Below are positions 9,584 through 29,558 of a stretch of DNA of 30,949 nucleotides, one piece after another. The DNA lies in the IMG/VR virus record IMGVR_UViG_3300045995_000500, positions 1 to 30,949 of that record; one strand, written 5' to 3'. The stretch comes from a virus. Under the pieces are notes generated by a model. The model saw only the letters and a program-made list of their open reading frames with translations, was not told the DNA's origin and searched no databases. The position numbers and the translations under genes are program-made. Numbering within the stretch: position 1 is the stretch's first letter; each line of letters starts with the position of its first letter.

Positions 9584-9635
9584 CGGAACCCCTTCTGTCT
9601 TATCCCGCCTCGCGCGCACGCGTACATTACGCGTC
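9584..9635 (+). promoter_or_regulatory. Late promoter copy 1 (lysis/packaging unit), leaderless
   Basis: The dyad CGGAA-CCCC-TTCTG (9584-9597) is the least symmetrical of the four. TTATCC (9600-9605) stands as -35, then 17 bases, then TACATT (9623-9628) as -10, then seven bases to the ATG. The -10 is embedded in the perfect stem ACGCGTA-CAT-TACGCGT. There is no Shine-Dalgarno sequence. Position corresponds to Plys of Mu. Confidence 0.7.
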
Positions 9636-9902
9636 ATGCAAACAACTAAATTCTATGACCTGAAACCCGGCGACCGCTTTGTCGATCAGGATGATCGCGT
9701 CTGCACAAAACTCACCAGTACCACGGCACGGCTGCATATTGCCCATCCGCCCAAGGAGTTCGGGCGCTGCATTGCGGCGATAGGCGCGGGCACACTGGTT
9801 CGATTTCTCCCCGCTGTTCCAGCCAAATTCAGCCCGCAAGGGGCTTCCCACGAAACGACGGAGCATAGGCTCCTGTTTCTGAATGAAAGGAAAATCAAAT
9901 AA
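9636..9902 (+). CDS. First late protein, small hypothetical
   Basis: The 88-residue protein (start MQTTKFYDLKPGDRF) looks like a small beta-rich domain. No family is recognised. The ATG lies directly at the predicted transcription start of late promoter copy 1, so its mRNA should be leaderless. Its stop overlaps the next start (TAATG), placing it at the head of the lysis cluster. Confidence 0.6.
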   Translation: MQTTKFYDLKPGDRFVDQDDRVCTKLTSTTARLHIAHPPKEFGRCIAAIGAGTLVRFLPAVPAKFSPQGASHETTEHRLLFLNERKIK

Positions 9903-10873
9903 TGAAAATATCCAGCTTAACCGCCTGGCTGCGTGGATTGCTTCGCCAACGCTCATTGTTCCTGATAGGCGGTGCCGCACTGGCATTATGGGCATCATTA
10001 CAGTCAGATCCAGACAGCGGACTTTCCACATTGCTGGGCGGACTGGCGCTAATTCAAGGGGTATGGGCTATCGCTGCCGCTCACTGGGCACGCAAGGCAT
10101 TGATGGATTATCCCGAGGCTAATCAGCGCAACTTGTTTGCCAAGGCCAGCGAGGGTTCTACCGGTGCCGGTCTTGCCTTGATCGCAATGGCTATCGCATT
10201 CGTTGGATTACTGATGGTATTTGCGCCCCGCGCGCATGCCACTGAGCTTCCCGCCGGATTTATTAAATATGGCCCGATGCTGAAAGCCGAGCAGCGCCAT
10301 TACTGGTCGGATCACCCTGATGCGGTTTTACTGGCCGGTTTAGTTGAGCAGGAATCCTGTATCAGCCTGAAATCAAAAGGATGCTGGAATCCATCGGCAC
10401 AGCTCAAAACTTCACGTGAGGAAGGTGCAGGCATGGGGCAAATCACCCGTGCCTATCGGGCAAACGGAGCGCTGCGATTCGATGCCTTATCTGACTTACA
10501 TGACCGTTATGAGGTTGAGTTAAGGGATATGTCATGGAGCAACGTATACGCCAGGCCAGAACTTCAGCTGCGCTCTATTGTGCTGATGAGCCGGGATGCG
10601 GCCAAACCATTTCGATCCGCTCCAGACATGCTGTCGTTTGGCGATGCCGCCTATAACGGCGGCACAGATGGCGTCCAAAAAGAACGCCGCGCCTGTGCGC
10701 TGACAAAAAATTGCAATCCCGGCAAATGGGTAGCTAACGTTGAGGCCCACTGCCTGAAGTCACGGCAACCGCTGTACGGCGGTCGTAACGCCTGCGACAT
10801 CAACCGTGAACACGTACACAACGCCCTATTGGTGCGCCCTGCCAAATACCGTTTAATGTGGGCAACGATATGA
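9902..10873 (+). CDS. Holin-like membrane domain fused to lytic transglycosylase
   Basis: The 323-residue protein joins two functions usually encoded apart. Residues 18-34, 43-62 and 88-109 are membrane segments (for example SLFLIGGAALALWASL), as in small phage holins. After APRAHATELPAG, which looks like a signal cleavage site, residues 120-323 form an SLT-like muramidase. Catalytic Glu is probably E151 in LVEQESC, followed by GAGMGQIT (175-182) and AYNGG (250-254). The enzyme would cleave peptidoglycan glycan strands from the periplasmic side. Being one frame without a break, it may be a signal-anchor type endolysin or a true holin-endolysin fusion. Spanins follow directly. Confidence 0.8.
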   Translation: MKISSLTAWLRGLLRQRSLFLIGGAALALWASLQSDPDSGLSTLLGGLALIQGVWAIAAAHWARKALMDYPEANQRNLFAKASEGSTGAGLALIAMAIAFVGLLMVFAPRAHATELPAGFIKYGPMLKAEQRHYWSDHPDAVLLAGLVEQESCISLKSKGCWNPSAQLKTSREEGAGMGQITRAYRANGALRFDALSDLHDRYEVELRDMSWSNVYARPELQLRSIVLMSRDAAKPFRSAPDMLSFGDAAYNGGTDGVQKERRACALTKNCNPGKWVANVEAHCLKSRQPLYGGRNACDINREHVHNALLVRPAKYRLMWATI

Positions 10874-11409
10874 ACCTCGTCCCCTGGCCTTATCGCATTC
10901 TCGCCCTGGTGTTGCTGCTTCTGGCCGGTATCGGTTTCGGATACGTGGAGGGCATCTCCCGTGAATCTGACCGACGCGACGCGCAGGATCTGCAAAAAAC
11001 AAACGATGCAGTTAAAGCCCGTGCAGTTGCACAAGCTCGTGCAGACAAGGAATCGGCACGTCGTGAAAGCATTGGCGCACAACGCGAAACCTCACGCGAA
11101 CAGATTCGTGTGGTGTACAGAACAATAAAGGAGCAAGCCGATGAAACAGTTAAAAAACATCCTGAGTTTAACGATTGCGGCCTTGATGCTGACGGCCTGC
11201 GCAACTGGAACGCCGCCAATTCTGGATCCGCCGCAAGCACGCCCGTGTCCGGCAAGCCTGACAGCACCTTGCCCAGTACCGCCACCCGCGAAATCGGGCA
11301 GCCTGGCGGATCTATATCTGAATCACATCGAGGCAATGGAGCTGGCCGCGCAGTGCCGGGATCAGATAGCAAAGCTGGCGGAGTGCGTACGGGAGTGATT
11401 TATGACTGA
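10870..11409 (+). CDS. Rz: Inner-membrane spanin (Rz-like)
   Basis: Started at the ATG at 10870 (ATGA overlap with the lysis enzyme), the protein has one N-terminal membrane segment (ILALVLLLLAGIGFGYVEG) and then a long charged coiled coil (about residues 30-95), the pattern of an i-spanin. With the o-spanin it fuses inner and outer membranes in the last step of lysis. The C-terminal third is Ser/Gly-rich, where the DNA also encodes the o-spanin in another frame. An upstream GTG at 10858 is possible but less likely. Confidence 0.8.
   Translation: MNLVPWPYRILALVLLLLAGIGFGYVEGISRESDRRDAQDLQKTNDAVKARAVAQARADKESARRESIGAQRETSREQIRVVYRTIKEQADETVKKHPEFNDCGLDADGLRNWNAANSGSAASTPVSGKPDSTLPSTATREIGQPGGSISESHRGNGAGRAVPGSDSKAGGVRTGVIYD
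11141..11398 (+). CDS. Rz1: Outer-membrane lipoprotein spanin (Rz1-like), nested in Rz
   Basis: Wholly embedded in the Rz gene in another frame, this encodes 85 residues with a lipoprotein signal (MKQLKNILSLTIAALMLTAC, lipobox LTAC). A Pro-rich mature part (PPILDPPQARPCPASL) follows. A ribosome site AAGGAGC precedes the ATG. These are the defining features of Rz1: secretion, lipidation, and Pro-rich contact with Rz in the periplasm. The nested arrangement is the same as in lambda. The last 35 residues (HIEAMELAAQCRDQIAKLAE) are helical. Confidence 0.85.
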   Translation: MKQLKNILSLTIAALMLTACATGTPPILDPPQARPCPASLTAPCPVPPPAKSGSLADLYLNHIEAMELAAQCRDQIAKLAECVRE

Positions 11410-11608
11410 TGAGATTGATCGCGCCTGCGAAGCTGAAGAGTGGTTTCGCAGCCAGGCACTGGATAACCGGCAAGTCATTGCCGACGCAATGCCATTCACC
11501 GGCAGTTGCTACAACTGCGAAGCCCCAATCGAGCATGGAAGTTTCTGCGATACAGATTGCCGGGACGATTATCAACTACGTAAAAAACAGGAAAATCAAA
11601 GGGTATGA
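11402..11608 (+). CDS. Small zinc-finger-like phage protein
   Basis: The 68-residue protein carries Cys36-x2-Cys39 and Cys49-x3-Cys53 (SCYNCE, FCDTDC), a probable metal-binding finger. Small proteins of this type are common between the spanins and the packaging genes in Mu-like phages. Their role is unknown. It overlaps Rz by 8 bases and the next gene by four. Confidence 0.65.
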   Translation: MTDEIDRACEAEEWFRSQALDNRQVIADAMPFTGSCYNCEAPIEHGSFCDTDCRDDYQLRKKQENQRV

Positions 11609-11952
11609 GCATGGATATGGAGTTAATGAAATTGGCCGTCATGGCGCTGGGATTAGCCTTCAATATTGCGGCATACCAGTATATGAAGTCATCGAATAAA
11701 GATAAGGCTACCAAGGATCAGATCAAAGAACTCAAAGATGATCTTGATGAAAAAATGGAAGACCAGGGAGACCGAATTACCAAGCTGGAATCTCGTGCTG
11801 AGGGTTCCCCTACGCATGCTGATCTGGGCGATATGCACGAAAAAATCAACAGGCTGATGACCGATGTCGGTCATCTATCTGGCGAATTTGTCGGTGTGCG
11901 GAATCTGCTCAACACCATCCATCAACACTTACTGACCGGAGGTAAAAAGTGA
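11605..11952 (+). CDS. DUF2730 (Mu gp25-like) membrane coiled-coil protein
   Basis: The 115-residue protein has an N-terminal membrane segment (MKLAVMALGLAFNIAAYQYM) followed by a charged coiled coil (IKELKDDLDEKMEDQGDRIT), the usual layout of DUF2730. In Mu the equivalent lies just before the terminase genes; its function is not known. The start follows AAAGGGT and overlaps the preceding stop. Confidence 0.75.
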   Translation: MSMDMELMKLAVMALGLAFNIAAYQYMKSSNKDKATKDQIKELKDDLDEKMEDQGDRITKLESRAEGSPTHADLGDMHEKINRLMTDVGHLSGEFVGVRNLLNTIHQHLLTGGKK

Positions 11953-12278
11953 CGACTTACGCCGAAGAAATAACCGCATCACGCCGCCTGACTATCCTTC
12001 TGGCACTGTACTTTGCGAATGCCTTCACAATGAATCGCGCCGTGCTACGCGATCAGGTCGGACGCACCGGCTATGTGACCAGCATGGACGAAATGATGGC
12101 TGACCTTGAATGGCTGGTCAGCATTGATCTGATTGAAATGCTGGAAATGGATGTGGTGCGACTCACCTATCGCGGTGAAGATATCGCGCTGGGTCGCAGT
12201 CAGGTCAACGGCGTGCGCCGCCCCTCTCCCGCCGTGACACCAGGCAAACCTGCCGCTAAACCACTGAGTCTTATCTGA
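11949..12278 (+). CDS. Mu gp26-like (VpaChn25_0724 family) protein
   Basis: This 109-residue protein begins at GTG, overlapping the preceding stop, after GGAGGTAAAAA. The body resembles a winged-helix protein (RRLTILLALYFANAFTMNRA, then EWLVSIDLIEM and RLTYRGEDIALG), matching a family that regularly precedes the small terminase gene in Mu-like phages. The tail is Pro/Ala-rich. Function not established. Confidence 0.7.
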   Translation: MTTYAEEITASRRLTILLALYFANAFTMNRAVLRDQVGRTGYVTSMDEMMADLEWLVSIDLIEMLEMDVVRLTYRGEDIALGRSQVNGVRRPSPAVTPGKPAAKPLSLI

Positions 12279-12778
12279 TGGCACACGGTGAAGATGCCCG
12301 CCGCCAAGTTCGTGCGGCCTATGTATTTGACCAGTTGTCTCTGGAAATCGCTGCTGCCAAGTTAGGCGTGCCGTATGCAACGGCACGTAACTGGAAGCGT
12401 ACCGGTAAAGAGCTGGGTGACGACTGGGACAAGGCGCGTGGTGCGCAGATGATCGCCGGTGGCGGCATTGAGGACGTGGTACGTCAGACGCTGGCCGTGG
12501 TAGTGCAGCAGGTACAGGCCACCGTCGAATCTATCCAGCAAGCACCCGATATGGCACCGGGCGACAAGGTACAAATGCTGTGTAGTCTGGCTGACGCCTA
12601 TAACAAATTGATGGCCGCCAGCCGCAAGCTGATGCCGGAAACTGACAAGCTCGCCGTGGCCACGGATGTGGTCAAGCGTTATGCCGAGTTTGTCCGGGTC
12701 AAGTATCCAAAACACATGCTAGTTGTGATTGAGACGATGGAGCCGTTCGGTGACGAACTGGCGAAAGCATATGGTTAA
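12278..12778 (+). CDS. DUF1804 protein, small terminase subunit candidate
   Basis: The 166-residue protein fits DUF1804: RRQVRAAYVFDQLSLEIAAA with a helix-turn-helix (ATARNWKRTGKELGDDWDKA) at the N-terminus, then GGGIEDVVRQTL and a conserved end ETMEPFGDELAKAYG. An N-terminal DNA-binding domain plus helical oligomerisation region just before TerL indicates the small terminase, which recognises phage DNA for packaging. Start and preceding stop overlap (TGATG). Confidence 0.8.
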   Translation: MAHGEDARRQVRAAYVFDQLSLEIAAAKLGVPYATARNWKRTGKELGDDWDKARGAQMIAGGGIEDVVRQTLAVVVQQVQATVESIQQAPDMAPGDKVQMLCSLADAYNKLMAASRKLMPETDKLAVATDVVKRYAEFVRVKYPKHMLVVIETMEPFGDELAKAYG

Positions 12779-12941
12779 AGTAAAAGACTGTGAATGGACT
12801 CGCGCGTCTTCGCTAAGAAAACGTGTATCTGGCTGTTTTAGTTATCTACTCATGGCGCTGGTCGCGTTATTCGCTCCAGTGAGTGCCGATATGGAGATGT
12901 ACAAGGTGCTGCGAGAGCAGTTTGAAGACGATGGCAAGTAA
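12771..12941 (+). CDS. Small membrane protein between terminase genes
   Basis: The ATG at 12771 overlaps the end of the small terminase gene and gives 56 residues. The basic start (MVKVKDCEWTRASSLRKR) is followed by one hydrophobic segment (FSYLLMALVALFAPVSA) and an acidic tail. It could be a short membrane protein or a signal-bearing peptide. It ends 11 bases inside the large terminase gene. No family is recognised. Confidence 0.45.
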   Translation: MVKVKDCEWTRASSLRKRVSGCFSYLLMALVALFAPVSADMEMYKVLREQFEDDGK

Positions 12942-14556
12942 CCAAACCTCAAAACGCGCCTTCCTTGAAGAGATCGGCAAGCTCGCGCAGAACTTCCGCA
13001 TGCAGATCGAAGCGGAGGTGGACGGCTTCGATCCGGATCCGGCTGCACTGGCTGAACGCCGTGCGCGAGCAATGCACGACTACCGTTTCTTTGCGCGCAC
13101 CTACTTTCCACACTACGTTAAAAAAGGCGAGGCAGCGTTACATACCTACCTCTATGACCGGTTGCCTGAGATTGTCGATAACGGAACCGGAGACCATGAA
13201 GCGATTGCCGCACCACGCGGTAATGCCAAATCCACGCTGGTTACACAGATCTTCGTAATATGGTGTGTCGTCACTGGGCGCAAGCATTATCCGGTGATCG
13301 TCATGGATGCACTGGATCAGGCAGCAACTATGCTGGAGGCGATCAAGGCCGAACTGGCATTCAATCCGCGTCTGACGATGGACTTCCCGGAGGCGTGTGG
13401 TGGCGGTCGCGTATGGAATGTCGGCACCATCATCACCGCCAACGATGCCAAGATACAGGCGTTCGGTTCAGGTAAGCGGATGCGCGGCCTGCGTCACGGC
13501 CCGCACCGTCCTGACCTGGTGATCGGCGACGATCTGGAAAATGATGAGAACGTGCGCAGCCCTGAGCAGCGCGACAAGCTGGAAAACTGGCTGAAGAAAA
13601 CCGTTCTTTCCCTGGGCGAAGCGGATGATACGATGGATGTGATCATCATCGGCACCATCCTGCATTACGACTCGGTGCTGTCACGCCTGCTTAAAAACCC
13701 ACTCTGGTCATCAAAGAAATTCCGCTCTATCGAGCGCTGGCCGGACAATATGAGTCTGTGGGAGCAATGGGAAGAACGCCTGCTTAATGAAGGTCAAGAG
13801 GCCGCATTACAACTTTACACCAGGTGTAAAGATGAAATGGAGGCCGGTGCAATCATCTGCTGGCCAGACGGTCAGCCGCTCTACAAGTTGATGGTCAAAC
13901 GCGCCCGCGATGGCCGTGCGGCATTTGATTCAGAACAACAGAACGATCCGGTCTCCGGAGACGATGCGCCGTTCGCACATATCCTGGACGATTGCTGGTA
14001 TCAATACCTGCCGCCTAATCTGATTTATTTCGGTGCATGTGACCCGTCACTAGGCAAGGCAGGTGCATCGCGTGATCCGTCTGCCTTGCTAGTAGGCGGT
14101 TATGACCGCACCACTGGCAAGCTGTATGTGGTCGAAGCGCCAATTAAAAAACGCCTGCCGGATCGCATCATTGAAGACGTGATCGAGCTGCAACGAAAAT
14201 ACCGCTGCGTATTATGGGTGGTAGAAACGGTACAGTTTCAGGAGTTCTTGTATACCGAACTGGTGAAGCGTTCGGCGATTGCTGGCGTTCCTGTCCCCGC
14301 TCGTGCCGTCAAACCCACAGCGGATAAGCTGCTGCGCATCGAGACGCTGCAGCCACATTTTGCCAATGGCCTGATTAAGCTCAATCCCAGCCAGACCACG
14401 CTGATTGACCAGCTGCGTCACTTCCCAAAAGCGGATCATGACGACGGCCCTGATGCCCTGCACATGCTGTGGGTGGCAGCGTTGTCAGGAAGCGGCGGTA
14501 TGGAATTTCAAACGTTGGGACAGCGCCGCGTCTCAACACGAATGAACGATTATTGA
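12931..14556 (+). CDS. Large terminase subunit (TerL, Mu gp28-like)
   Basis: The packaging motor ATPase and nuclease. From the ATG at 12931 (MASNQTSKRAF) it has 541 residues; an in-frame ATG at 12883 would add 16 residues of unlikely sequence. Walker A is near residues 94-102 (APRGNAKST) and Walker B near 196-203 (LVIGDDLE). The nuclease part has GACDPSLG with DPSALLVGGYD, VVETVQFQEF and HDDGPDALHML, giving the acidic residues of an RNase H-like active site. The small terminase and portal flank it in the standard order. The predicted start overlaps the small upstream gene. Confidence 0.9.
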   Translation: MASNQTSKRAFLEEIGKLAQNFRMQIEAEVDGFDPDPAALAERRARAMHDYRFFARTYFPHYVKKGEAALHTYLYDRLPEIVDNGTGDHEAIAAPRGNAKSTLVTQIFVIWCVVTGRKHYPVIVMDALDQAATMLEAIKAELAFNPRLTMDFPEACGGGRVWNVGTIITANDAKIQAFGSGKRMRGLRHGPHRPDLVIGDDLENDENVRSPEQRDKLENWLKKTVLSLGEADDTMDVIIIGTILHYDSVLSRLLKNPLWSSKKFRSIERWPDNMSLWEQWEERLLNEGQEAALQLYTRCKDEMEAGAIICWPDGQPLYKLMVKRARDGRAAFDSEQQNDPVSGDDAPFAHILDDCWYQYLPPNLIYFGACDPSLGKAGASRDPSALLVGGYDRTTGKLYVVEAPIKKRLPDRIIEDVIELQRKYRCVLWVVETVQFQEFLYTELVKRSAIAGVPVPARAVKPTADKLLRIETLQPHFANGLIKLNPSQTTLIDQLRHFPKADHDDGPDALHMLWVAALSGSGGMEFQTLGQRRVSTRMNDY

Positions 14557-14562
14557 GGCTGA

Positions 14563-16032
14563 ATGACCATGAATGATATTAAAAAATCACGTCCACCCGC
14601 AGAGACCGATGAAATCGCCAGCGTTAAACGCGACCCTTTTTTGCCGCTATTCAGTGGTCTATTGCAACAAAATGACGACACGCTGGCGACGCGCGGCCAG
14701 GGAAAAGGTATTCGGCTCTACGAAGAGATAGAGCGCGACGCACATGCTTTTTCCTGTCTGCATAAACGCAAGATGGCGGTTATCTCACGTCCATGGGAAG
14801 TCACACCAGCCAGCGAATCCGCACTGGATCAGCGTGCCGCTGAGGTCGTACGTACACAGCTGAGTAATATCGGTTTTGATCACCTCTGTCTGAATCTACT
14901 GGACGCGATCAATAAGGGGTTTTCGGTCGGTGAAATTTTGTGGGCAACTACGGGCAGTGAGATTGTAGCCAGCGAGGTCCGCGCACGCGATCAGCGGCGT
15001 TTCTGGTTTGGTGAAAATTACGAACTGCGTCTAAAAACCCTTACCAATATGCTGCCTGGTGAAGAGTTACCGGAGCGCAAGTTCATTGTCCATTCTCTAG
15101 GAGCAAAAGACGGCAATCCTTACGGCATGGGCTTGGGAAGCAAACTGTTCTGGCTAGTCTGGTTCAAGCGTCAGGGCATTACTTTCTGGTTGACACTGCT
15201 GGACAAGTTCGGCTCACCGACTGCCGTTGGCAAATATCCCAATGGCACGCAACCTCCCGATCAGCAAAAGTTATTGGATGCGCTGTCCGCCATCTCGCAA
15301 GATTCCGGGGTAATTGTTCCGGAAGGAATGATGATCGAACTGCTCGAAGCCACGCGAGGCGGTAACGTCGGCTATGAACAGATGATCCGCTACATGGATG
15401 AGCAGATCAGTTACTGCGTCTTGGGCGAAGCGCCCAGTGCAAAAGGTTCAGGCGGTGCTCTGGCCAGCGCGGCAATCACGCGCAACGAAGTGCGACTTGA
15501 GCTAGTGCAATTCGATGCGGACATGCTGTCGGCCACACTCAATAACACACTGATCAAATGGATCACCGAATACAATGTACCAGGTGCCACAGCACCTACT
15601 GTATGGCGCAAGATCATCGAGGCAGAGGATATCAAAATTCGTGCCGAGCGCGATCAAATCCTATTTAACATGGGGATGCGTCCAGATGATGTTTATCAGG
15701 CTGAGAATTATCCTGGCTGGACATTTCAAGCGCCGCCCAAAAAACAAATCCAAGGGGGTGGCACGCCAGTAGCGTTCGCCGAATCTGCTCAGGCAGTATT
15801 CCCCGGCGATGCGCTGGCCGCACGCTTATCAATCGAGGTAGCACCGCACTGGGATGCGATGTTGGAGCAGCTGCGCGGCATCGTGCATGGCGCTAATAGT
15901 CTGGAGTCGTTGCGCGATGATCTGCTGGCAAGCTTTGGCGATTTGCCCGATGACGAGCTAGTTAAGGTGATGGCGGCAGGATTTGCGGTGGCGGAGATGG
16001 CTGGTATGAGCGACGTTAACGATGGTCGCTAA
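14563..16032 (+). CDS. Portal protein (DUF935, Mu gp29-like)
   Basis: The 489-residue protein is the dodecameric portal through which DNA enters the head. DUF935 features include ERDAHAFSCLHKRKMAV, SRPWEVTPAS, GFSVGEILW, LLDKFGSPTAVGKYP and ASAAITRNEVRLELVQFDAD. Two start ATGs lie two codons apart (14563 and 14569). It follows terminase by six bases and overlaps the MuF gene by 11 bases. Confidence 0.9.
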   Translation: MTMNDIKKSRPPAETDEIASVKRDPFLPLFSGLLQQNDDTLATRGQGKGIRLYEEIERDAHAFSCLHKRKMAVISRPWEVTPASESALDQRAAEVVRTQLSNIGFDHLCLNLLDAINKGFSVGEILWATTGSEIVASEVRARDQRRFWFGENYELRLKTLTNMLPGEELPERKFIVHSLGAKDGNPYGMGLGSKLFWLVWFKRQGITFWLTLLDKFGSPTAVGKYPNGTQPPDQQKLLDALSAISQDSGVIVPEGMMIELLEATRGGNVGYEQMIRYMDEQISYCVLGEAPSAKGSGGALASAAITRNEVRLELVQFDADMLSATLNNTLIKWITEYNVPGATAPTVWRKIIEAEDIKIRAERDQILFNMGMRPDDVYQAENYPGWTFQAPPKKQIQGGGTPVAFAESAQAVFPGDALAARLSIEVAPHWDAMLEQLRGIVHGANSLESLRDDLLASFGDLPDDELVKVMAAGFAVAEMAGMSDVNDGR

Positions 16033-17260: not shown

Positions 17261-17345
17261 CTCAAGGTAGCGAGCGGATTCGAACCGCCTCACACGGGTT
17301 TAAGACCGTCCCGTCAACCGATATTTCGGGTTCTCTACCTTGAGC
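17260..17345. repeat. 11 bp perfect inverted repeat enclosing the tRNA-like gene
   Basis: GCTCAAGGTAG (17260-17270) and CTACCTTGAGC (17335-17345) are perfectly complementary. They extend the tRNA acceptor stem outward by several pairs, so RNA from either strand could fold into one long-stemmed structure. Confidence 0.8.
17265..17339 (-). tRNA. tRNA-like gene, anticodon UAA (unusual)
   Basis: On the minus strand the sequence folds as a 75-nt cloverleaf. Acceptor GGTAGAG pairs with CGCTACC (one A-G mismatch). The D stem CCCG/CGGG has a 13-base loop with A14, G18G19 and A21. The anticodon arm ACGG/CCGT has loop CTTAAAC (17304-17298), giving anticodon UAA after U33. A four-base variable loop follows, then T arm GGCGG-TTCGAAT-CCGCT with the canonical loop. 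Oddities: position 26 is missing, the pair next to the anticodon loop is U-C, the variable arm is short although UAA normally marks class II tRNA-Leu, the discriminator is U, and no CCA is encoded. It may be a divergent functional tRNA, a decoy, or a tRNA-like element. Confidence 0.65.
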
Positions 17346-18095: not shown

Positions 18096-18146
18096 CGGAA
18101 CCCCATCCGTCTTAACACCCCGCTTCGTGCCGCTCAAAATGCGGTC
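18096..18146 (+). promoter_or_regulatory. Late promoter copy 2 (protease/capsid unit), leaderless
   Basis: Dyad CGGAA-CCCC-ATCCG (18096-18109), -35 TTAACA (18112-18117), 17-base spacer, -10 CAAAAT (18135-18140), then six bases to the ATG at 18147. CCGC/GCGG flank the -10. No Shine-Dalgarno sequence is present. The place is equivalent to PI of Mu. Confidence 0.75.
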
Positions 18147-19259
18147 ATGAAAACGAATAAACCAATCCAGATCTTCAAGCCCGGCAAGCACACCGCGATG
18201 AGTGGTGCTGCATTGTCGTTTTCCGAAACCGACCTGTCGGCAACTGCGGCTGCCTACGATCCAGCAAAGCACGAAGCGCCGCTGGTCTGTGGCCATCCAA
18301 AACACGACGATCCGGCTTACGGCTGGGTTGGTGCACTGAGTTTTTCGGATGGCGTGCTGGAAGCGAACCCCACACAAGTAGATGCCGCATTCGCCGAAAT
18401 GGTCGGCAAGGGTTCATTCAAGAAAATATCTGCCTCCTTTTACGCCCCCGATTCCCCCAGCAATCCTGTCCCTGGTGTGTATTACCTGCGCCACGTGGGT
18501 TTCCTCGGTGCGATGCCGCCCGCTGTAAAAGGGATGCGCAATCCTTCATTTGCAGATACCGAGCAAGGTGTCGTCGAGTTCGCCGAATGGGACGACATAG
18601 ATAACGCAGGTCTGTGGCGCAGCATGCGCGACTGGATACTCGGCAAGTTCGGTCAGGCCGATGCCGATACGGCGGTACCCGGTTACACCGTTAAAAATCT
18701 TGAGCAATCCGCCCAGGATGAATTGAAGAAATCACAAACCGCCGATGTACCCGCACCGGCATTTATCGAGAAAGGAAGCATCGCTGTGACCCCTGAAGAA
18801 AAAGCCGCACTGGAGGCAGAAAACGCCCAGATGAAAAAACAATTGGCCGATGCAGCTGCCCGCGACAAAGCCAGTAAGGCTGCCGCACGTCACACCGAAA
18901 ATGCCAGCTTTGCAGAAGGTCTGGCAAAGGCTGGGACGCTGCTCCCTGCGCACAAAGATGTGATCGTCGCCTCTCTGGATCAATTGGGCGCGGGTGAACA
19001 AGTGGTTGAGTTCGGTGAAGGCGATACCAAAAAGCCGTTGGTCGATGCATTGAAAGCCATGTTGACCAGCATGCCCAAGCTGGTGAGTTTCGGCGAAGCC
19101 GCCGGTGCTGGCAAAGCATCACAAGGCACAGTCGATTTTGCGGCACCTGCCGGATATGCCGTAGACGGCGAGCGTCTGGAACTGCACCACAAGGCGCTGG
19201 CCCACCAGGCGCAACACAAAGTGACTTACGGCGAAGCACTGTCTGCCGTCAGCATTTAG
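18147..19259 (+). CDS. Phage protease/scaffold (Mu gpI/Z-like)
   Basis: The 370-residue protein is the maturation protease with a scaffold tail. The protease part (about residues 1-150) contains LVCGHPKHDDPAYGWVGAL, SFKKISASFY and YYLRHVGFLGAMPPAVKGM, all hallmarks of the Mu gpI family. Residues about 205-260 form a coiled coil (EEKAALEAENAQMKKQLADA) typical of a scaffold, and the end resembles Z-like assembly domains. In Mu an internal start makes the scaffold alone; an ATG at 18831 inside the coiled coil is a possible but unproven internal start here. The first ATG coincides with the predicted transcript start. Confidence 0.85.
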   Translation: MKTNKPIQIFKPGKHTAMSGAALSFSETDLSATAAAYDPAKHEAPLVCGHPKHDDPAYGWVGALSFSDGVLEANPTQVDAAFAEMVGKGSFKKISASFYAPDSPSNPVPGVYYLRHVGFLGAMPPAVKGMRNPSFADTEQGVVEFAEWDDIDNAGLWRSMRDWILGKFGQADADTAVPGYTVKNLEQSAQDELKKSQTADVPAPAFIEKGSIAVTPEEKAALEAENAQMKKQLADAAARDKASKAAARHTENASFAEGLAKAGTLLPAHKDVIVASLDQLGAGEQVVEFGEGDTKKPLVDALKAMLTSMPKLVSFGEAAGAGKASQGTVDFAAPAGYAVDGERLELHHKALAHQAQHKVTYGEALSAVSI

Positions 19260-19664: not shown

Positions 19665-20738
19665 ATGAAATCTAAATTCCTGAAACTTTTCGCCGTGCTG
19701 GCCGGTTGTCTTGCCTATGCCGCACTGTCTCACGCCGGTGTGCTTGATCCCAGCTGGATTGATTCAAGTTCCCTTGTCGCACTGGGTTTTGTCGGCAACA
19801 TGACTGGTGCGCAAGCGCGGGTCGTCGATCCGATTCTCACCACCGTGGCACAGGGTTATCAGAATGCCGAGATGGTGGCGAACTACCTGTTCCCGGTTGT
19901 CCCTGTCGAGCAGCGCGGCGGCAAGATCATCCAGTTCGGCAAGGAAGATTTCCGCGCCTATAACACTGGGCGTGCGCCAGGTACCAACACCAAGCGCGTG
20001 CAATACGGCTATCTGGGCAATCCTTTTGCGCTGGAATCTCACTCTCTGGAAGGTGCGGTGCCGTTCGAGATCATGCAGGAAGCCAATGCCGTACCCGGCA
20101 TCGACATGGGACGCATCGCAGTAGCCAAAACGCAGAACATCATTTTGCTGAGCAGCGAAATTGCGGCAGCCTCACTGGCAACTAACCTTGCGAACTACGG
20201 CGCGAATAATAAGGTTACTTTGGCCGGTACCAGCCAGTGGTCGGACTATGCCAGCGGTATTTCTGATCCTTCCAAGGATATCGAAAGCGCCAAGGAACAA
20301 GTGCGTTCACAGACTGGTAAGCGCGCCAACACGGTTTTGCTGTCACCCAAAGCGTTTAACGCCCTGAAGCAGCACCCCAAGATCATCGACCGTATCAAGT
20401 TCACTGGTCGCGACTCGCTGAGCACGGATATCTTGGCTGCTCTTTGGGGCACGCCACGGATTGTCGTTGGTGATTCTGTCTATGAAGATGCTGCAACTGG
20501 CTTGCTGGCGGATGTTTGGGGCAAAGACGTGGTGGTCGCATATACCGAGATCGGCACGCTGGCTGATGCCGGTTTACCGAGCTACGGCTATACCTATCGC
20601 CTGCGCGGCTATCCACTGGTCGAAGTTCCTTACATGGACCGCAATGCCAAGTTGTGGGCCTATCCGGTCAACGATGAACGTGCGCCGGTGCTGGCCGCAT
20701 CAGGTGCGGGCTTCCTGATTAAGAACGCTTCAGCCTAA
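19665..20738 (+). CDS. Major capsid protein
   Basis: The second ATG (19665) is preferred over 19650 because GGAG lies nine bases before it; this gives 357 residues. From about residue 45 the protein resembles major capsid proteins of Mu-like phages: VVDPILTTVAQGYQNAEMVA, NYLFPVVPV, GKIIQFGKEDF, FEIMQEANAVPG, TVLLSPKAFNALKQHP and YRLRGYPLVEVPYMD. The first 25 residues (FLKLFAVLAGCLAYAALSHA) look like a secretory signal, unusual for a cytoplasmic capsid. They are probably removed by the phage protease or buried during assembly. The gene follows the decoration gene and ends before a hairpin. Confidence 0.85.
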   Translation: MKSKFLKLFAVLAGCLAYAALSHAGVLDPSWIDSSSLVALGFVGNMTGAQARVVDPILTTVAQGYQNAEMVANYLFPVVPVEQRGGKIIQFGKEDFRAYNTGRAPGTNTKRVQYGYLGNPFALESHSLEGAVPFEIMQEANAVPGIDMGRIAVAKTQNIILLSSEIAAASLATNLANYGANNKVTLAGTSQWSDYASGISDPSKDIESAKEQVRSQTGKRANTVLLSPKAFNALKQHPKIIDRIKFTGRDSLSTDILAALWGTPRIVVGDSVYEDAATGLLADVWGKDVVVAYTEIGTLADAGLPSYGYTYRLRGYPLVEVPYMDRNAKLWAYPVNDERAPVLAASGAGFLIKNASA

Positions 20739-21012: not shown

Positions 21013-21027
21013 GACAGGAGCCGTTAA

Positions 21028-22055: not shown

Positions 22056-22063
22056 GAGCTGTC

Positions 22064-22231
22064 ATGAAAGTTCAAGCTGCACCGGGATTGAATGTCCCAA
22101 AGGAAGACAAGCCGCACGATTACATCACGGATGCCGAGGCGGTAGAAGTACCGGATACCGCGTATTACCAGCGCCGTATCACTGATGGCGACCTGGTTGA
22201 AGTGACTACCAACAAGAAAGGAGCGGCATAA
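22064..22231 (+). CDS. DUF2635-type small protein before tail sheath
   Basis: This 55-residue protein starts MKVQAAPGLNVPKEDKPHDY, has the segment EVPDTAYYQRRITDGDLVEV and ends TTNKKGAA. The pattern matches DUF2635, a short protein regularly encoded immediately upstream of the Mu-like sheath gene. AGGAGCTGTC precedes the ATG. Its stop overlaps the sheath start (TAATG). Role unknown. Confidence 0.75.
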   Translation: MKVQAAPGLNVPKEDKPHDYITDAEAVEVPDTAYYQRRITDGDLVEVTTNKKGAA

Positions 22232-23652: not shown

Positions 23653-23669
23653 CTAGGGGGAGAAAAGAT

Positions 23670-24044
23670 ATGGCACTCAAAGAATATGCAGGCGCGATTG
23701 TGCTTGAGGTGAACGGCGTTGAGATTGAAGTAGAGAGTCTTGACGTTACTAAAAAAACCGGGCGAAAGCTGGTAAAAACCATGAACCGTACAGGCCGCCC
23801 GGCTGGTTTTGCCAAAGGAGTTGAGGAAATTGACCTTAAGATTTCAGCGGTGATTCCACTGAGTGGGGATATTGATTGGGGTGCGATTCAGGGCGCGAAG
23901 TTAACTCTTTTCCCGGCTGCAGCAGGCGGTGTCCGCACCTCTTATCTGGATTGCTTCACACTGGATGTGGGGCGTAAATATACCGTGGATGGCGAAGCCA
24001 AGCAGGATTTAAGCATGGCAAGCTTACGCGAGGTGATTGAATGA
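23670..24044 (+). CDS. Tail tube protein (Mu gpM-like)
   Basis: The 124-residue protein (start MALKEYAGAIVLEVNGVEIE) follows the sheath gene after AGGGGGAGAAAAGAT. Further family-like parts are SLDVTKKTGRKLVKTMNR and the end SMASLREVIE. The order sheath, tube, chaperone is fixed in contractile tails. It overlaps the next gene by four bases. Confidence 0.85.
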   Translation: MALKEYAGAIVLEVNGVEIEVESLDVTKKTGRKLVKTMNRTGRPAGFAKGVEEIDLKISAVIPLSGDIDWGAIQGAKLTLFPAAAGGVRTSYLDCFTLDVGRKYTVDGEAKQDLSMASLREVIE

Positions 24045-24358
24045 GTTCGGCGCTCAAGGAAGTCGGTTCGTTGCTGGTCGGCGTTGAGGTGGATGGCAAT
24101 TTGCATTATGAATTTACCTTGCGCCCTCGCCTGGTACGAGATTCGATCCGCGTCATGGAAGATGACAAGGCACAGCAGAATGATGCTTATCGCGGCGTGG
24201 CATTGATCGCTTGCCAGCTTGAGAAGCTGGGTGACCTAAAGCCAGAACAAATTTCGACTGAACTGCTGTTGTCTATGTATGACGCAGATTTGGCGGTCAT
24301 CATGGAAGCAAATAGTCGCCTGGAGGGGCGGCTGCAAAACTTTCGAAAAGAAACTTGA
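24041..24358 (+). CDS. Tail assembly chaperone, first frame (Mu gp41-like)
   Basis: The 105-residue protein (SSALKEVGSLLVGVEVDGNL, then YEFTLRPRLVRDSIRVMEDD) is a tail assembly chaperone, the G-type protein that helps tape measure and tube assemble. As in other long-tailed phages, the following reading frame seems to be reached by ribosomal frameshifting near the end of this gene. The likely slip site is CTG-GAG-GGG-CGG (24320-24331); the alternative frame is the +1 frame, which can also be read after a -2 slip. Confidence 0.75.
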   Translation: MSSALKEVGSLLVGVEVDGNLHYEFTLRPRLVRDSIRVMEDDKAQQNDAYRGVALIACQLEKLGDLKPEQISTELLLSMYDADLAVIMEANSRLEGRLQNFRKET

Positions 24359-24554
24359 AACTCACCGGCATATCCATCTGGCACTGGTAAAGATCGGGGT
24401 ACCATGGCAAGCGGCGTTAGACTTGAGCGAAGCTGAAGCGGGTGCCTATCTGGATGCTTTTGCGCAGTTGAACGGGCTTAAAAAGAAGGGGGTATCCGAT
24501 GTCTCGCAGAAACGTTATCTCTCCACGCGTTCATTGTCAAAAAAACGCCTGTAA
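24359..24554 (+). CDS. Tail assembly chaperone, frameshift extension (gp42-type)
   Basis: This frame lacks its own credible start and continues the chaperone in the +1/-2 frame: it is open across the end of the first frame and gives ETHRHIHLALVKIGVPWQAA, DLSEAEAGAYLDAFAQLNGL and a basic end. The fusion G-T type product would bind the tape measure protein. In Mu a -2 frameshift at the equivalent place is known. The coordinates mark only the part beyond the first stop; the true fusion runs from 24041. Confidence 0.65.
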
Positions 24555-24705
24555 GTACGGCGAGGCCGATGGCATAAGCATCCTCTTGACCTTGTGGGGA
24601 AATGGCTAACCCTAGCCCCGCAGCCAACAGTAAAAGCGCCAGTACAGCCAGTAATTGACCAATCTGGCAGACGCGGTATAAAAATAGAAGCCAAGGATTT
24701 TTCAT
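24478..24705 (-). CDS. Small antisense membrane protein
   Basis: On the minus strand, opposite the gap between chaperone and tape measure, lies a 75-residue frame from the ATG at 24705. It has two clear membrane segments (QLLAVLALLLLAAGLGLAIS and YAIGLAVLTGVFLTMNAW), a basic amphipathic start (MKNPWLLFLYRVCQIG) and a basic tail. The plus strand carries no gene from 24555 to 24703, so this gene fills a real gap. Its start and that of the tape measure gene share one CATG. A weak GAGAG stands about 10 bases upstream. It may be a lysogeny-expressed membrane protein; the role is unknown. Confidence 0.4.
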   Translation of the reverse strand: MKNPWLLFLYRVCQIGQLLAVLALLLLAAGLGLAISPQGQEDAYAIGLAVLTGVFLTMNAWRDNVSARHRIPPSF

Positions 24706-26554
24706 GTCAACAACTCTCGCTCTCATGTTACAGATTACTGCTGCCAACGGCGCGGCGGGAGTGCTTAACGGGGTGAAGAAAAGCCTATCAGATATGGGGC
24801 GGCTAAGCAAGGATACCGCCGCCCACTTCGACTCGATGACACGATCATTGCAACGTGCAGGTACGGCGTTTGCAATGAGTGCCTATATCAACGGAAAGAT
24901 GAAGCCGGGTGTTCAGGCCGCAGCGGATCTTGAAGAGTCGATGAACCGCGTTAAGGGAAATATCGCTCAGGTCGGCGATAAAGCCGATGATCTGGCGGCC
25001 AAGCTTGCGAAGGTGCGAGATACCGGACGCGAAGTATCCAAGGTAATGCCCTATTCCTCCAAAGAGGTAGTCGACATTCAGGGCGATATGCTCAAGGCTG
25101 GCGTGCCATTAGAGGCCGTCTCGGGGGCACGCGGCGCAGCTTATTCCGCAGCAGGCTTGGCGAGCATTTCCGGTACCGACCCAAAAGATGTTGGGGAAAT
25201 GTTGGCACGTATCGGCAAACAGTACAATTTCAAACCCGATGAGTATAAACCTGCTGCTGACCTGTTGGCGAAGGGCGAAGCTGCCTCACCCGGCTCGTTG
25301 CAAGAGTTGATGTATTCACTCAAGCAATTTGGTTCAACTGCTGCGCTGCTGGGCGTATCGTTCAAGGATTCAGTCACAATGGCATCGGCGATGGCACCGT
25401 TAGGCTACGAGGCGGGCACAGCGGTAAACCGCTATATGCTGGATTCGGTGGGACTGACACCCCATCAGCGCAAGTCGATGGTAGAGCTTGGATTAGCCAA
25501 AGAGAAAGACGGGAAGTTTCAAAACCTGTTGTATAAAGACGGTAAATATATTGGTCTGGATGCTGAAAATGCGATGGTGCATAAGCAGTTTGGAAAAATT
25601 AACGATACAGGTGTCAAGGCTCGTCTCGCGCATGATATCTGGGGGCAGGAAGGAATGCGCGCCGCGCTGATGGTTGGTGGTGAAGGCGATTTGTTTGTCG
25701 GTATGCAAAAGCAAATGGATTCATCGCTCGGCCTGGAAGAACGGATGACCGTTACGATGAACGGTTTTAATATGGCAACCAAAGCTGCTGCTGGCACAGT
25801 ACAAACCCTACTGGCCACCGCTTTTACGCCAGCATTGGATAAGGCTACCGTACTGGCCAACAAAGTAAATGATATTGCTGATGCCGGGGCAAAAGGGTTG
25901 GATAGTCACAAACAGGCGAATAACTGGATTGTCGGTGGAGTTGCTACTGCAGCAGTGGGGGTGGCGGGTTACGGGCTTTTTAACCTGTTAAAAGGGTTGG
26001 GCAGCGGGGCTAAAGCGATCAAGGGATTTTTGGGTAGCGGCGCATCCCTAGCCGGTGGCATCGCCGAAGGTAAGGCAATACAAGCCGTAACCGGTGTAAC
26101 ACCTGTATTTGTCACCAATTTTGCGCAAATGCAGGGCGGTGGCGCGGCAAATGTAGCAACCGATCTGGCAGCCACGGCTGCTGCTGCATCCGCTGCGCCT
26201 GGGCTGCTCAAGACAGTGGCAACCGGAGCAAAATGGTTGGCCTACTCCACTCTGCCGGAAATTGCCGCATTAGGTACAGGTGCAGTGGCAGCATCCGCCG
26301 CAATGGCGGCGGCAGCGGGGGCGCTTGGCTATGGAGTTGGAACCGGCCTTAATGCCGCAGGCGGATATCTTGCAAAAGATACTTCAATGGAAGGTTTTGC
26401 CACGGATGTGTTTGGTAAAATGGCTGCCCAAATATGGGCATCTTTGGGCAGTAAAGATGCAGAAGAGGCACTGGTAATTAATTTACATCTCGATGGGCAG
26501 CAAATCCAGACGGCTGTTGAAACCAGACAAAAAGCAACGGCGCGGCGTAACTGA
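24704..26554 (+). CDS. Tail tape measure protein
   Basis: The 616-residue protein sets tail length. Typical features are the helical N-terminus (MSTTLALMLQITAANGAAGV), the TMP-family segment EESMNRVKGNIAQVGDKADD with VMPYSSKEVVDIQGDMLKAG and GTDPKDVGEMLARIGKQYNF, and hydrophobic, Ala/Gly-rich segments at about 405-430 and 490-560. These may insert in the host membrane during DNA ejection. AAGGA lies eight bases upstream of the start. It directly follows the chaperone genes. Confidence 0.9.
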   Translation: MSTTLALMLQITAANGAAGVLNGVKKSLSDMGRLSKDTAAHFDSMTRSLQRAGTAFAMSAYINGKMKPGVQAAADLEESMNRVKGNIAQVGDKADDLAAKLAKVRDTGREVSKVMPYSSKEVVDIQGDMLKAGVPLEAVSGARGAAYSAAGLASISGTDPKDVGEMLARIGKQYNFKPDEYKPAADLLAKGEAASPGSLQELMYSLKQFGSTAALLGVSFKDSVTMASAMAPLGYEAGTAVNRYMLDSVGLTPHQRKSMVELGLAKEKDGKFQNLLYKDGKYIGLDAENAMVHKQFGKINDTGVKARLAHDIWGQEGMRAALMVGGEGDLFVGMQKQMDSSLGLEERMTVTMNGFNMATKAAAGTVQTLLATAFTPALDKATVLANKVNDIADAGAKGLDSHKQANNWIVGGVATAAVGVAGYGLFNLLKGLGSGAKAIKGFLGSGASLAGGIAEGKAIQAVTGVTPVFVTNFAQMQGGGAANVATDLAATAAAASAAPGLLKTVATGAKWLAYSTLPEIAALGTGAVAASAAMAAAAGALGYGVGTGLNAAGGYLAKDTSMEGFATDVFGKMAAQIWASLGSKDAEEALVINLHLDGQQIQTAVETRQKATARRN

Positions 26555-26563
26555 ACATTACCC

Positions 26564-26614
26564 CGGAACACTTTCCGCCTTAACTCCCCTCATGCGCGCG
26601 CGTAACCTGCGCGC
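26564..26614 (+). promoter_or_regulatory. Late promoter copy 3 (tail hub unit), leaderless
   Basis: Perfect dyad CGGAA-CACT-TTCCG (26564-26577), -35 TTAACT (26580-26585), 17-base spacer, -10 TAACCT (26603-26608), six bases to the ATG at 26615. GCGCGC repeats flank the -10 on both sides. The dyad starts ten bases after the tape measure stop. The place corresponds to PP of Mu. Confidence 0.8.
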
Positions 26615-27844
26615 ATGGCCTGGATACAAACACTACAAGATGCTTCATTTCGCGGCACCGTTTTCGATATTGTTAAAACGGACGATACGGCAGATCGCGC
26701 CCTTGCCGAACAGAGTTACCCGTACAGGAATGGCGCTGATGTTGAAGATATGGGACGCGGTGCGCGACATATCAGCATCGAAGCGGTGTTTTATGGCGCT
26801 GATTACGAAGCGCGGCTACAGTGGTTTTTAGGCCAGCTTGATCTGCCGGGCAGTGGCGAGCTAGTTCATCCTGTCTTCGGGTCTTTCAAGACAGCGCAAG
26901 TGGCGCGCTACTCCGTCCACCATGATGCCGACAATGTTGACCAGGCAACTGTCAGCATCGAGTTTGTCGAATCCACGCCTGGCGAACCATTTTTCAACTG
27001 CACTTTACCTGTGCAACTTGCTGAAACGATATCCCAGCATGGCTCACTCGCTACAGCAGCTGCGACAGAAGCGCACGGCTCACTGATTGACCGGTTGCGT
27101 GCTGCAAATCCGCTGTCCTCTCTTAATGCGCTACGCACGGCGCTGATGAACCCTTTATTGGCAATCACAGCGCAAGCCGGTGTCGTTTTGTCCGGCCTAG
27201 ATGTGCTGGCCTACCCTCGCGCCTGGGGGAACGATATTTCTGCGCTGGTGAACGGGCTGTTGGATATTCGTGCCTTCGGCAGCAACCTTTCCGCCGACTG
27301 GGCTAGTATTCAGAGCGATCTGAACGCATTTTCAATCTTCAGCACCTCTACTTCGACATCGTCCACCACGACACAAGTATCACCTGGGAATACTTCGACC
27401 GAAGTACAAGCAATGAATGCTACCGCCGCCACTATTCAGGTAAACACGGCGGTCGGACTGGCGAATGCGGCCAGCTATATGCTGGGCGCTGAAGCTACCA
27501 CACCGACACTTTCACCTGTCGCAATTGAAGCGATTGCCAACACCGCCCGCACCGCCATCGAAGTGGCCATCGAACAAGTACGCGCCTGTTACGGCATCGA
27601 ACAGAGCCGCCCGATCACTGAACCGCTCAAGAATCAGGCGCTGGCCGTGCAGGAGACTGCGCGCGCAATCATTGCGGCACGTCCGCCGCTGATCCTGCGC
27701 ACCGTGGAAGTGAGTGGTAATTTCAGGCTATTAGCCCATTTATGGTATGGCGATCACACACGTGCACCTGAGCTGTATCGCCTGAATGATGCGCGTAGTC
27801 CGTTTGTCCAGGCCGGAGATCGCATTCATGCCTACGCCCGCTGA
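26615..27844 (+). CDS. DNA circularisation N-terminal domain protein (Mu gp43-like)
   Basis: The 409-residue protein starts MAWIQTLQDASFRGTVFDIV and continues with HISIEAVFYGADYEARLQWF and LDLPGSGELVHPVFGSFK, the N-terminal domain of the Mu gp43 family. Despite the family name it is a tail/baseplate protein. Residues 235-275 are Ser/Thr-rich linker. The C-terminal part ends in a LysM-like segment (LLAHLWYGDHTRAPELYRLN). No ribosome site precedes it; the ATG coincides with the predicted transcript start. Confidence 0.85.
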   Translation: MAWIQTLQDASFRGTVFDIVKTDDTADRALAEQSYPYRNGADVEDMGRGARHISIEAVFYGADYEARLQWFLGQLDLPGSGELVHPVFGSFKTAQVARYSVHHDADNVDQATVSIEFVESTPGEPFFNCTLPVQLAETISQHGSLATAAATEAHGSLIDRLRAANPLSSLNALRTALMNPLLAITAQAGVVLSGLDVLAYPRAWGNDISALVNGLLDIRAFGSNLSADWASIQSDLNAFSIFSTSTSTSSTTTQVSPGNTSTEVQAMNATAATIQVNTAVGLANAASYMLGAEATTPTLSPVAIEAIANTARTAIEVAIEQVRACYGIEQSRPITEPLKNQALAVQETARAIIAARPPLILRTVEVSGNFRLLAHLWYGDHTRAPELYRLNDARSPFVQAGDRIHAYAR

Positions 27845-28949
27845 ATCCGTCGAACTGCTGATTGCAGGCAAGACGCATCGCGACTGGTCTAGCTATGAGA
27901 TCGACTCCGATCTGCTCACACCTGCCGATGCGTGGCATGTCACGCTGGGGATGTCAGGTGGCATGATGCCGCCCGATGTCGCGCCAGGTGCGCCGGTTAT
28001 CGTTAAGGTTGGCGGCGACACGGTATTGACCGGGCGTGTCGATGAAGTCAGTCATCAGGTCGGCAAAACCGCACATAACTTCTCGATGTCGGGTCGCGAT
28101 CATGCTGCGGTGCTTCTGGACTGCTCCGCGCCGATCTTCACCAAGCAGATGGTCAGCCTCAAGGAACTCTGTACCGCCCTGACGCGCGACTTCGGTATCA
28201 AAACGCCGCGCATCGATGCCGACAGTACCCGCATTCGCGAGAAAATTAATATCGAACCCGGCGACAGCGCATGGGATGCCCTGTCACATGCCGCAGAGGC
28301 TAATGGCCTGTGGCCGTGGTTTGAACCGGAAGGTACGCTGGTGATTGGTGGGCCTGATTATAGTCAGCCAGCGGTAGCCACGCTGGTGCTACGCCGCGAT
28401 GGCCGTGGCAATAATGTACTCAGCCTGGATAAAACCGAGTCGGTTGCCGAGCGTTATTCACAGGTGACAGTGCTGGGGCAAACCCACGGTACGGCGACTG
28501 AGCCGGGCAAGCATGCGCTGACTGCGACAGCAAAGGATACCGGCATCGGCTGGTACCGACCGAAGATCGTCACAGACCATGAAACAGACAATTATGCAGT
28601 TTGTCTTGATCGCGCTAAAAAACTGATCTCAGATAGCAGGCTGAAGGGACTCACGCTGACCGCTACGGTACAGGGGCATCGGATTGTCGGCGCGACCGAC
28701 GCAGTGCGACTGCTCTGGAAGCCAGGGCAGCGGGTGAATGTCATATCCGAGCCGCACGGCATCGATGCGGTGTTTTTTCTGATGGCGCGCAAATTCACGC
28801 GCAGCCGCAGCGAGGGAACACGCACTACGCTGACACTCAAGGAAGACGGTGTCTGGATCATGGATGCTCACCCTCATAAAAACAAGCATCGGCGCGGTAA
28901 GAACGACGGTTTGGTGCATGTGCAGATAACAGATGGAACTCAGCCATGA
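27828..28949 (+). CDS. Baseplate hub protein (Mu gp44/gpP-like)
   Basis: Started at the ATG at 27828 (MPTPAESVELLIAGKTHRDW), the protein has 373 residues. It matches the gpP/gpD hub family: SFEID-like SYEIDSDLLTPADAWHVTLG, VDEVSHQVGKTAHNFSMSGR with DHAAVLLDCSAP, EANGLWPWFEPEGTLVIGGP and RARAEGTRTTL-like RSRSEGTRTTLTLKEDG. The hub trimer sits above the spike. It overlaps the previous gene by 17 bases, and an upstream ATG at 27786 would add 14 residues of unlikely sequence. Confidence 0.85.
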   Translation: MPTPAESVELLIAGKTHRDWSSYEIDSDLLTPADAWHVTLGMSGGMMPPDVAPGAPVIVKVGGDTVLTGRVDEVSHQVGKTAHNFSMSGRDHAAVLLDCSAPIFTKQMVSLKELCTALTRDFGIKTPRIDADSTRIREKINIEPGDSAWDALSHAAEANGLWPWFEPEGTLVIGGPDYSQPAVATLVLRRDGRGNNVLSLDKTESVAERYSQVTVLGQTHGTATEPGKHALTATAKDTGIGWYRPKIVTDHETDNYAVCLDRAKKLISDSRLKGLTLTATVQGHRIVGATDAVRLLWKPGQRVNVISEPHGIDAVFFLMARKFTRSRSEGTRTTLTLKEDGVWIMDAHPHKNKHRRGKNDGLVHVQITDGTQP

Positions 28950-29503
28950 TTGAGGTTATTGATAACCGTATTCGGCGCGCACTGAGTGGCATCCGCTTAG
29001 CCTTTCGTGGGGTGGTGACGCTGGTCAAGGCGGCGGGCGCAGTGCAGCTGATACAGGTTGAAGGGATGAGCGGCGAGCGCTTACAGGATACCGAGCTGTT
29101 TCAGCACTTCGGTTTTACCAGCAATCCGCCTGCTGGCACGATGGCGATTGTACTTCCGATCGGAGGAAAAACAGCGCACGGAATCGTCATCGCAACTGAG
29201 AATGGCAACCTGCGCCTGAAAGGATTGGCCAGCGGCGAGACGGCGCTTTACAATCAGTGGGGCGATTACGTCATTCTCAAGGCCGACCGGCGCATGCAGG
29301 TGTTCTCCTCTATTGCCGTGGACATCACCACGCCGCTGGTGACAACCAGTGGTGACCTACATGTGGGTGGCAGTATCGTCGCCCAGGGCGATATCAGTGA
29401 CCACGGCAACAAGACCATGTCCAACATGCGTACGGTTCACAACGGCCATACTCACAGTGATCCGCAGGGTGGCAGTGTCGCAGCGCCTATAAGTCAGATG
29501 TAA
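28946..29503 (+). CDS. Baseplate spike/assembly protein V (Mu gp45-like)
   Basis: The 185-residue protein is the membrane-piercing spike. It has the OB-fold start (RALSGIRLAFRGVVTLVKAA, then EGMSGERLQDTELFQHFGF) and a beta-helical tail ending in HNGHTHSDPQGG. There H168-T-H170 is the HxH motif known to bind iron at the spike tip. The start overlaps the hub stop (ATGA). Confidence 0.9.
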   Translation: MIEVIDNRIRRALSGIRLAFRGVVTLVKAAGAVQLIQVEGMSGERLQDTELFQHFGFTSNPPAGTMAIVLPIGGKTAHGIVIATENGNLRLKGLASGETALYNQWGDYVILKADRRMQVFSSIAVDITTPLVTTSGDLHVGGSIVAQGDISDHGNKTMSNMRTVHNGHTHSDPQGGSVAAPISQM

Positions 29504-29507
29504 CCCC

Positions 29508-29558
29508 CGGAAGTCTTTCCGTCTTAACTGCATTCATGCGCGCGCGTAACCTGCGCAC
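29508..29558 (+). promoter_or_regulatory. Late promoter copy 4 (baseplate unit), leaderless
   Basis: Perfect dyad CGGAA-GTCT-TTCCG (29508-29521), -35 TTAACT (29524-29529), 17-base spacer, -10 TAACCT (29547-29552), six bases to the ATG at 29559. From the -35 on it is nearly the same as copy 3, suggesting recent duplication. The dyad begins five bases after the spike stop codon. Confidence 0.8.

Follow-up and report, generated by a model that had tools for sequence, protein, structure and literature searches.

The late genes of the virus analysed here (IMG/VR record IMGVR_UViG_3300045995_000500; "the window" is the whole stretch of 30,949 bases) are preceded by four copies of one promoter element, which in all likelihood are late promoters activated by a Mor-family protein and from which messages starting with the start codon itself would be read. 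The system is a variant of Mu-type late control that was not previously known. In a fuller reading, with a probability of about 0.45, many Mu-like phages would have leaderless, Mor-activated late blocks whose promoters lie inside a covarying hairpin, with the first gene of a block, the head protease in particular, silent in read-through RNA until its own promoter fires, and the PI promoter of Mu and the leadered promoter of Chromohalobacter phage YPCBV-1 would carry the same gate.

In the model proposed, a dimer of the Mor-family protein encoded at 8484–8879 would bind the dyad beside the -35-like hexamer and recruit the sigma-70 RNA polymerase of the host, so that the blocks for lysis/head, protease/capsid, tail hub and baseplate would all be switched on together. 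Transcription would begin at the ATG or at most one base away from it, and the first gene of each block would be read leaderless. The promoter is embedded in an inverted repeat, the 5' arm of which would precede the promoter's own transcription start; RNA reading through from an upstream promoter could fold a hairpin against or over a start codon without a Shine-Dalgarno sequence, while the promoter's own message would lack the hairpin, and the first gene, above all the head protease, would be translated only from its own Mor-activated message. The promoter and the leaderless start, taken together, are probable; the gating of read-through RNA by the hairpin, which we infer from the observed covariation, is the weakest added step and has about even odds.

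A 22-base pattern, CCGGAANNNNTTCCGYCTTAAC, allowing up to three mismatches, has exactly four matches in the 30,949 bases, all on the plus strand and before late genes only, against a mean of 0.05 expected from dinucleotide shuffles, none of which contained four. The preliminary description had placed four such sites before the genes at 9636, 18147, 26615 and 29559 in a fixed geometry, and both statements are borne out: in each copy the dyad is followed by two bases, the -35-like hexamer, 17 bases, the -10, a gap (7 bases in copy 1, 6 bases in copies 2–4) and the ATG (Table 1). The dyad centre lies, as had been said of three copies, at -44.5 relative to the ATG in copies 2–4, and at -45.5 in copy 1, and its noted closeness to the position of Mor on the Mu middle promoter also holds, Mu Mor being centred at -43.5 on Pm (PMC4287176, PMC4390567), on a site of two 5-bp inverted repeats (PMC4390567). 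The common CGGAA-N4-TTCCG dyad stood only in part, being perfect in copies 3 and 4 and imperfect in copies 1 and 2. The -35-like hexamers, of TTAAC type, are conserved and identical to TTGACA at three to five of six positions. The earlier reading overlooked the terminator-like site at 9550–9572 and the inverted repeat around each -10. The promoter positions, before lysis, protease (I) and tail genes, are those of Mu-type late promoters. A 38,302-base viral contig that contains the window sequence identically holds no promoter site beyond the window's four, and contig G015, which matches the window without a difference from end to end, was not counted as independent.

Table 1. Late promoter elements and associated genes in the window
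Feature	Position	Strand	Basis or remark
Mor-family transcription activator, 131 aa; residue 117 = Arg in helix TTRHIRDI	8484..8879	+	PF08765, phrog_836
Terminator-like stem + T tract (intrinsic type), just 5' of copy 1	9550..9572	+	pattern scan
Copy 1 dyad CGGAACCCCTTCTG (imperfect)	9584..9597	+	
Copy 1 -35-like TTATCC	9600..9605	+	
Copy 1 inverted repeat ACGCGTA-CAT-TACGCGT around -10	9618..9634	+	
Copy 1 -10 TACATT	9623..9628	+	ATG at 9636
First late gene, 88 aa, function not assigned	9636..9902	+	then endolysin at 9902
Copy 2 dyad CGGAACCCCATCCG (imperfect)	18096..18109	+	
Copy 2 -35-like TTAACA	18112..18117	+	
Copy 2 inverted repeat CCGC-TCAAAAT-GCGG, -10 in loop	18130..18144	+	covariation, 22 protease promoters
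Copy 2 -10 CAAAAT	18135..18140	+	ATG at 18147
Head maturation protease (Mu gene I counterpart)	18147..19259	+	phrog_976, E 1.3e-129
Copy 3 dyad CGGAACACTTTCCG (perfect)	26564..26577	+	
Copy 3 -35-like TTAACT	26580..26585	+	
Copy 3 inverted repeat CATGCGCGCG-N7-TGCGCGCATG, start codon included	26591..26617	+	
Copy 3 -10 TAACCT	26603..26608	+	ATG at 26615
DNA-circularisation/baseplate-hub protein	26615..27844	+	PF07157, phrog_184
Copy 4 dyad CGGAAGTCTTTCCG (perfect)	29508..29521	+	
Copy 4 -35-like TTAACT	29524..29529	+	
Copy 4 inverted repeat (predicted stem, one mismatch) up to start codon	29535..29561	+	
Copy 4 -10 TAACCT	29547..29552	+	ATG at 29559
GP46 baseplate protein	29559..29927	+	PF07409, phrog_180

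Dozens of Mu-like phages and prophages carry the element in front of late genes, and several of its carriers were found in Gallionellaceae and Nitrosomonadales assemblies. These relatives were collected by scans for the dyad and the -35 alone in viral contigs and in bacterial genomes. The ATG did not form part of the pattern, and among 71 distinct hits the unconditioned ATG offsets from the element start peak at 52/53 bases (28 of 71), most other offsets being taken by about one to four hits each; a second peak, at 44, corresponds to the AATGG of the protease loops. The preliminary description had tied its proposal to the presence of the motif before orthologous genes in relatives, and there it was found: whole contigs carry up to four sites each in front of orthologous genes, which in many relatives include those for the protease, the DNA-circularisation/hub protein and gp46. 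The start codons are sound because the orthologous proteins align from residue 1 or near it. In 40 non-redundant sites with the start at 52/53, selected without use of the -10, the -10 hexamer, at a fixed spacing of 17 bases, has A at position 2 in 39 and T at position 6 in all 40, and the 60 sites compared have in common the dyad, a -10 of the form nAnnnT, 6–7 bases and a start codon. A dyad-like site 5' of Mor in L064 was set aside, the -10/ATG layout being absent there.

Two observations on a relative (G022, IMGVR_UViG_3300025839_000361) concern the element itself. Its late promoters at 20379 and 23466, which stand before two different genes, are identical from at least about 19 bases 5' of the dyad through the ATG, which suggests recent copying of the promoter. 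At its first late site (792–819) there is an extended palindrome, GTTAAGCCGGAAGTGTTTCCGGCTTAAC, and the dyad and the -35-like hexamer therefore face both ways.

Each -10 of the window lies in or beside an inverted repeat, which in copies 3 and 4 extends to the start codon. The arms of this repeat change together between phages, most strongly at the head-protease gene, as judged from a covariation test in which the discriminators were swapped between phages of the same promoter class. With its own arm the mean stem is 6.1 at protease promoters, compared with 4.7 for the swapped arm (z=6.7, n=22), and at other promoters the values are 4.9 and 3.9 (z=3.7, n=14, one of the 14 sites, B23:10242, having been entered with a 7-base gap where the true gap is 6); the paired-arm changes at these two kinds of site include ones such as GGTTGCC/GGCAACC versus GGTCGCC/GGCGACC. 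Stems of at least 6 bp that end near the start were found at 10 of 15 protease promoters, as against 4 of 369 other starts. Among reference phages, no start tested in Mu or in YPCBV-1 has a longer stem than the protease start (CTGCTCA...TGAGCAG in Mu, first of 33; first of 47 in YPCBV-1), and the protease start is also near the top in B3 and in D3112, but not in B23; among the Mu-like phages examined, the protease hairpin is absent in phiSHP3, StM171, KS10 and Lsp-JY19.

As to what the repeat does, the pattern scan found no terminator directly before copies 2–4, so that read-through from upstream is plausible there, and only such read-through RNA could fold the hairpin, since the promoter's own message would begin 3' of the 5' arm. 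With the ATG taken as +1, position and covariation describe a start-site hairpin of the T4 type, formable only by upstream-initiated RNA. The main competing explanation, which we consider unlikely, places the role of the repeat at the DNA level, where a cruciform or strand opening in supercoiled DNA would expose the -10 in a loop and help the activator to open the promoter. The location of the -10, within the loop or flanked by the two arms (some loops are just the -10 hexamer), and the retention of pairing while the sequence changes would both agree with this; however, the repeats of Mu PI and of YPCBV-1 are shifted 3' of the -10, to the region of the transcription start and ribosome site, and in imperfect stems G-U occurs at 10 sites and A-C at 1 (p about 0.055, worked out by hand), a preference that leans to RNA over DNA and is only suggestive. 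That the inverted repeats merely reflect a G+C-rich sequence with alternating C and G is improbable: it is partly true of the CG-tract promoters, which have little covariation beyond composition (z=2.2) and a fold energy no better than swapped, but at the protease and other sites the cognate arms beat the class-swapped ones. The alternating CGCGCGCG tract itself stands directly 5' of the -10 (for example at window 26593–26602 and 29537–29546), and a CG tract of this type is kept across many phages despite the weak covariation.

The preliminary description had proposed that the four starts have no Shine-Dalgarno sequence and that the ATG is the first base of the message. No Shine-Dalgarno match of at least 4 bases was found at the four window starts, many other window genes having one, and by the same threshold such a match is present at 1 of 40 promoter genes and at 220 of 371 other starts (Fisher p 2e-13), the choice of starts in the comparison set being rough. 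The usual distance from a -10 to the transcription start is 6–7 bases. This spacing, together with the near-invariant C before the start codon (56 of 60 sites), the missing Shine-Dalgarno sequence and the almost exclusive use of ATG at the compared promoter genes, fits the proposal, and what marks a leaderless gene, namely a -10 placed 6–7 bases before the start codon, no Shine-Dalgarno sequence and an ATG start, is found here; the spacing allows it to be said with good confidence that the late messages are leaderless. Leaderlessness is not universal among Mu-like phages, because the late messages of Mu and YPCBV-1 have leaders.

That short leaders are present instead, with CTTAAC as the -10, a start about 10 bases downstream and the hairpin in the gene's own 5' leader, for example as a translational regulator, is quite improbable. 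TTAACT is AT-rich and the 5' arm of the hairpin often begins about 10 bases after it, as this explanation would have it; yet CTTAAC was rejected as a -10 since the dyad centre would then sit at about -22, which is within the footprint of RNA polymerase and differs from the Mor site as mapped. Such a layout would also fail to account for the nAnnnT at a constant spacing of 17 bases and for the C that precedes the ATG, and its leader would have no Shine-Dalgarno sequence. The AATGG in the loop of the protease hairpin was not accepted as a general upstream start, being out of frame in the 6-base-gap sites. At protease promoters, for instance at window 18139–18150, an ATG in the hairpin region opens a three-codon frame with a TGA overlapping the real start codon; the overlap is a feature of 6-base-gap sites, and in 7-base-gap sites the hairpin-region ATG is in frame.

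It had further been suggested that one Mor-like protein may switch on all late genes directly, and here the sequence comparisons point the same way. The 8484–8879 protein scores 41.8 bits against PF08765, above the curated cut-off of 24.9, and matches phrog_836 with E 1.5e-29; it is the only PF08765 match in the window, and this, the Mu-like dyad distance and the correspondence between Mor residue 117 and the dyad make the neighbouring Mor-family protein the likely activator. Of 21 records searched, 13 have a Mor-family match, each in a single gene; the rest are mostly short fragments in which the Mor region is missing or may be missing. Mor homologues were taken from 60 prophage loci by genome searches with phrog_836, and a relaxed scan of the Mor loci (xyGAA-N4-TTC + nAnnnT + ATG) found 13 sites, a few of which look like chance, and none in reversed sequence; the finds include phages with CTGAA dyads, and larger stretches of several of these hold further copies before the protease. 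Among 25 phages compared, all 18 with CGGAA dyads have Arg at Mor residue 117, and all 7 with CTGAA dyads have Ser, Trp or Tyr there; a second column, window residue 102, also splits the two groups, with mixed residues on each side. The best tree has about four switches of dyad type, its strongly supported branches alone being compatible with a single origin of each type. Alignment of the window Mor with Mu Mor and C shows the region of the putative C-terminal helix-turn-helix; a single-sequence AlphaFold model (pLDDT 42) was too poor to use, and a PDB sequence search with Mor gave no useful relative. That the dyad is bound by some other regulator (a phage repressor or host factor), with Mor acting elsewhere, is also quite improbable, for although a dyad beside the -35 might be an operator too, its type tracks a residue in the Mor helix-turn-helix region, it sits at nearly the distance known for Mu Mor, and the window sites are confined to late genes.

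Like Mu, in which the late promoters Plys, PI, PP and Pmom depend on activator C (PMC4287176, PMC4390567, PMC4461284), the window phage has four probably activator-dependent promoters before lysis, head-protease and tail genes, a protein of the Mor/C family as the likely activator and, beside the -35, a short dyad that is centred at about -44 when the ATG is taken as +1. It differs in that Mu uses a Mor-to-C cascade and the window phage one activator, and further in its recognisable -35, its CGGAA dyad and the apparent lack of a leader; Mu Pm has been reported to lack a usable -35 hexamer, which does not apply to the window promoters. The oligonucleotide design in PMC4461284 indicates leaders of about 20–25 bases with a Shine-Dalgarno sequence for the Mu lys and I messages, and the same design, which includes 20 bases past the start, would place the PI start in or near the hairpin loop, so that the 5' arm would be largely outside the promoter's own RNA. 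In T4 the gating is established for gene e and I-TevI, where the hairpin is formed only by upstream-initiated RNA (PMC3014915, PMC2988022). The window promoters resemble the late promoters of T4 gene e, soc, 49 and I-TevI in being placed so that only upstream-initiated RNA would fold a hairpin over the initiation region; in contrast, the T4 hairpins sequester the Shine-Dalgarno sequence and/or AUG, whereas the window starts have no Shine-Dalgarno sequence and are apparently leaderless, and T4 uses a phage late sigma.

The protease promoter of Pseudomonas phage B3 is similar (GCCGCC-TCACTCTG-GGCGGC-ATG, with nAnnnT 7 bases before the ATG), and Pseudomonas phage JBD67 has the same protease hairpin; the B3 dyad, TTTTCGG-N4-CCGAAAA, is centred at -43.5 and is unrelated in sequence to that of the window. 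In B3 (NC_006548) 19857–19887 holds this perfect 7-bp dyad (TTTTCGG-TCCG-CCGAAAA), with the likely ATG at 19887 right after the GCCGCC/GGCGGC hairpin, and the annotated protease start, a CTG at 19857 upstream of that ATG, is probably wrong. In YPCBV-1 (18640–18734) the leader of the protease gene has a GGCCTCC/GGAGGCC hairpin over the likely Shine-Dalgarno sequence, and a dyad-like GCTGAAGTCCTTCGC lies upstream.

Discussion of leaderless messages mostly concerns single regulatory genes or treats them as a trait of particular bacterial lineages. The cI gene of lambda, read from PRM with the ATG at the transcription start and no Shine-Dalgarno sequence, is a single repressor gene, whereas in the present case, a widespread type of phage, it is blocks of structural and lysis genes that apparently rely on leaderless messages; a search of the open-licence literature found no earlier account of such late messages in phages of the Mu type. 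In many unannotated Mu-like prophages the 51-base layout can be used to find late promoters and to correct start codons, and the match between residue 117 and the dyad is a starting point for a recognition code of the Mor/C activators. To our knowledge, a protease-timing hairpin has not previously been described in Mu. The hairpin offers a testable timing mechanism for the synthesis of the head protease, and this mechanism may extend to Mu, a textbook phage.
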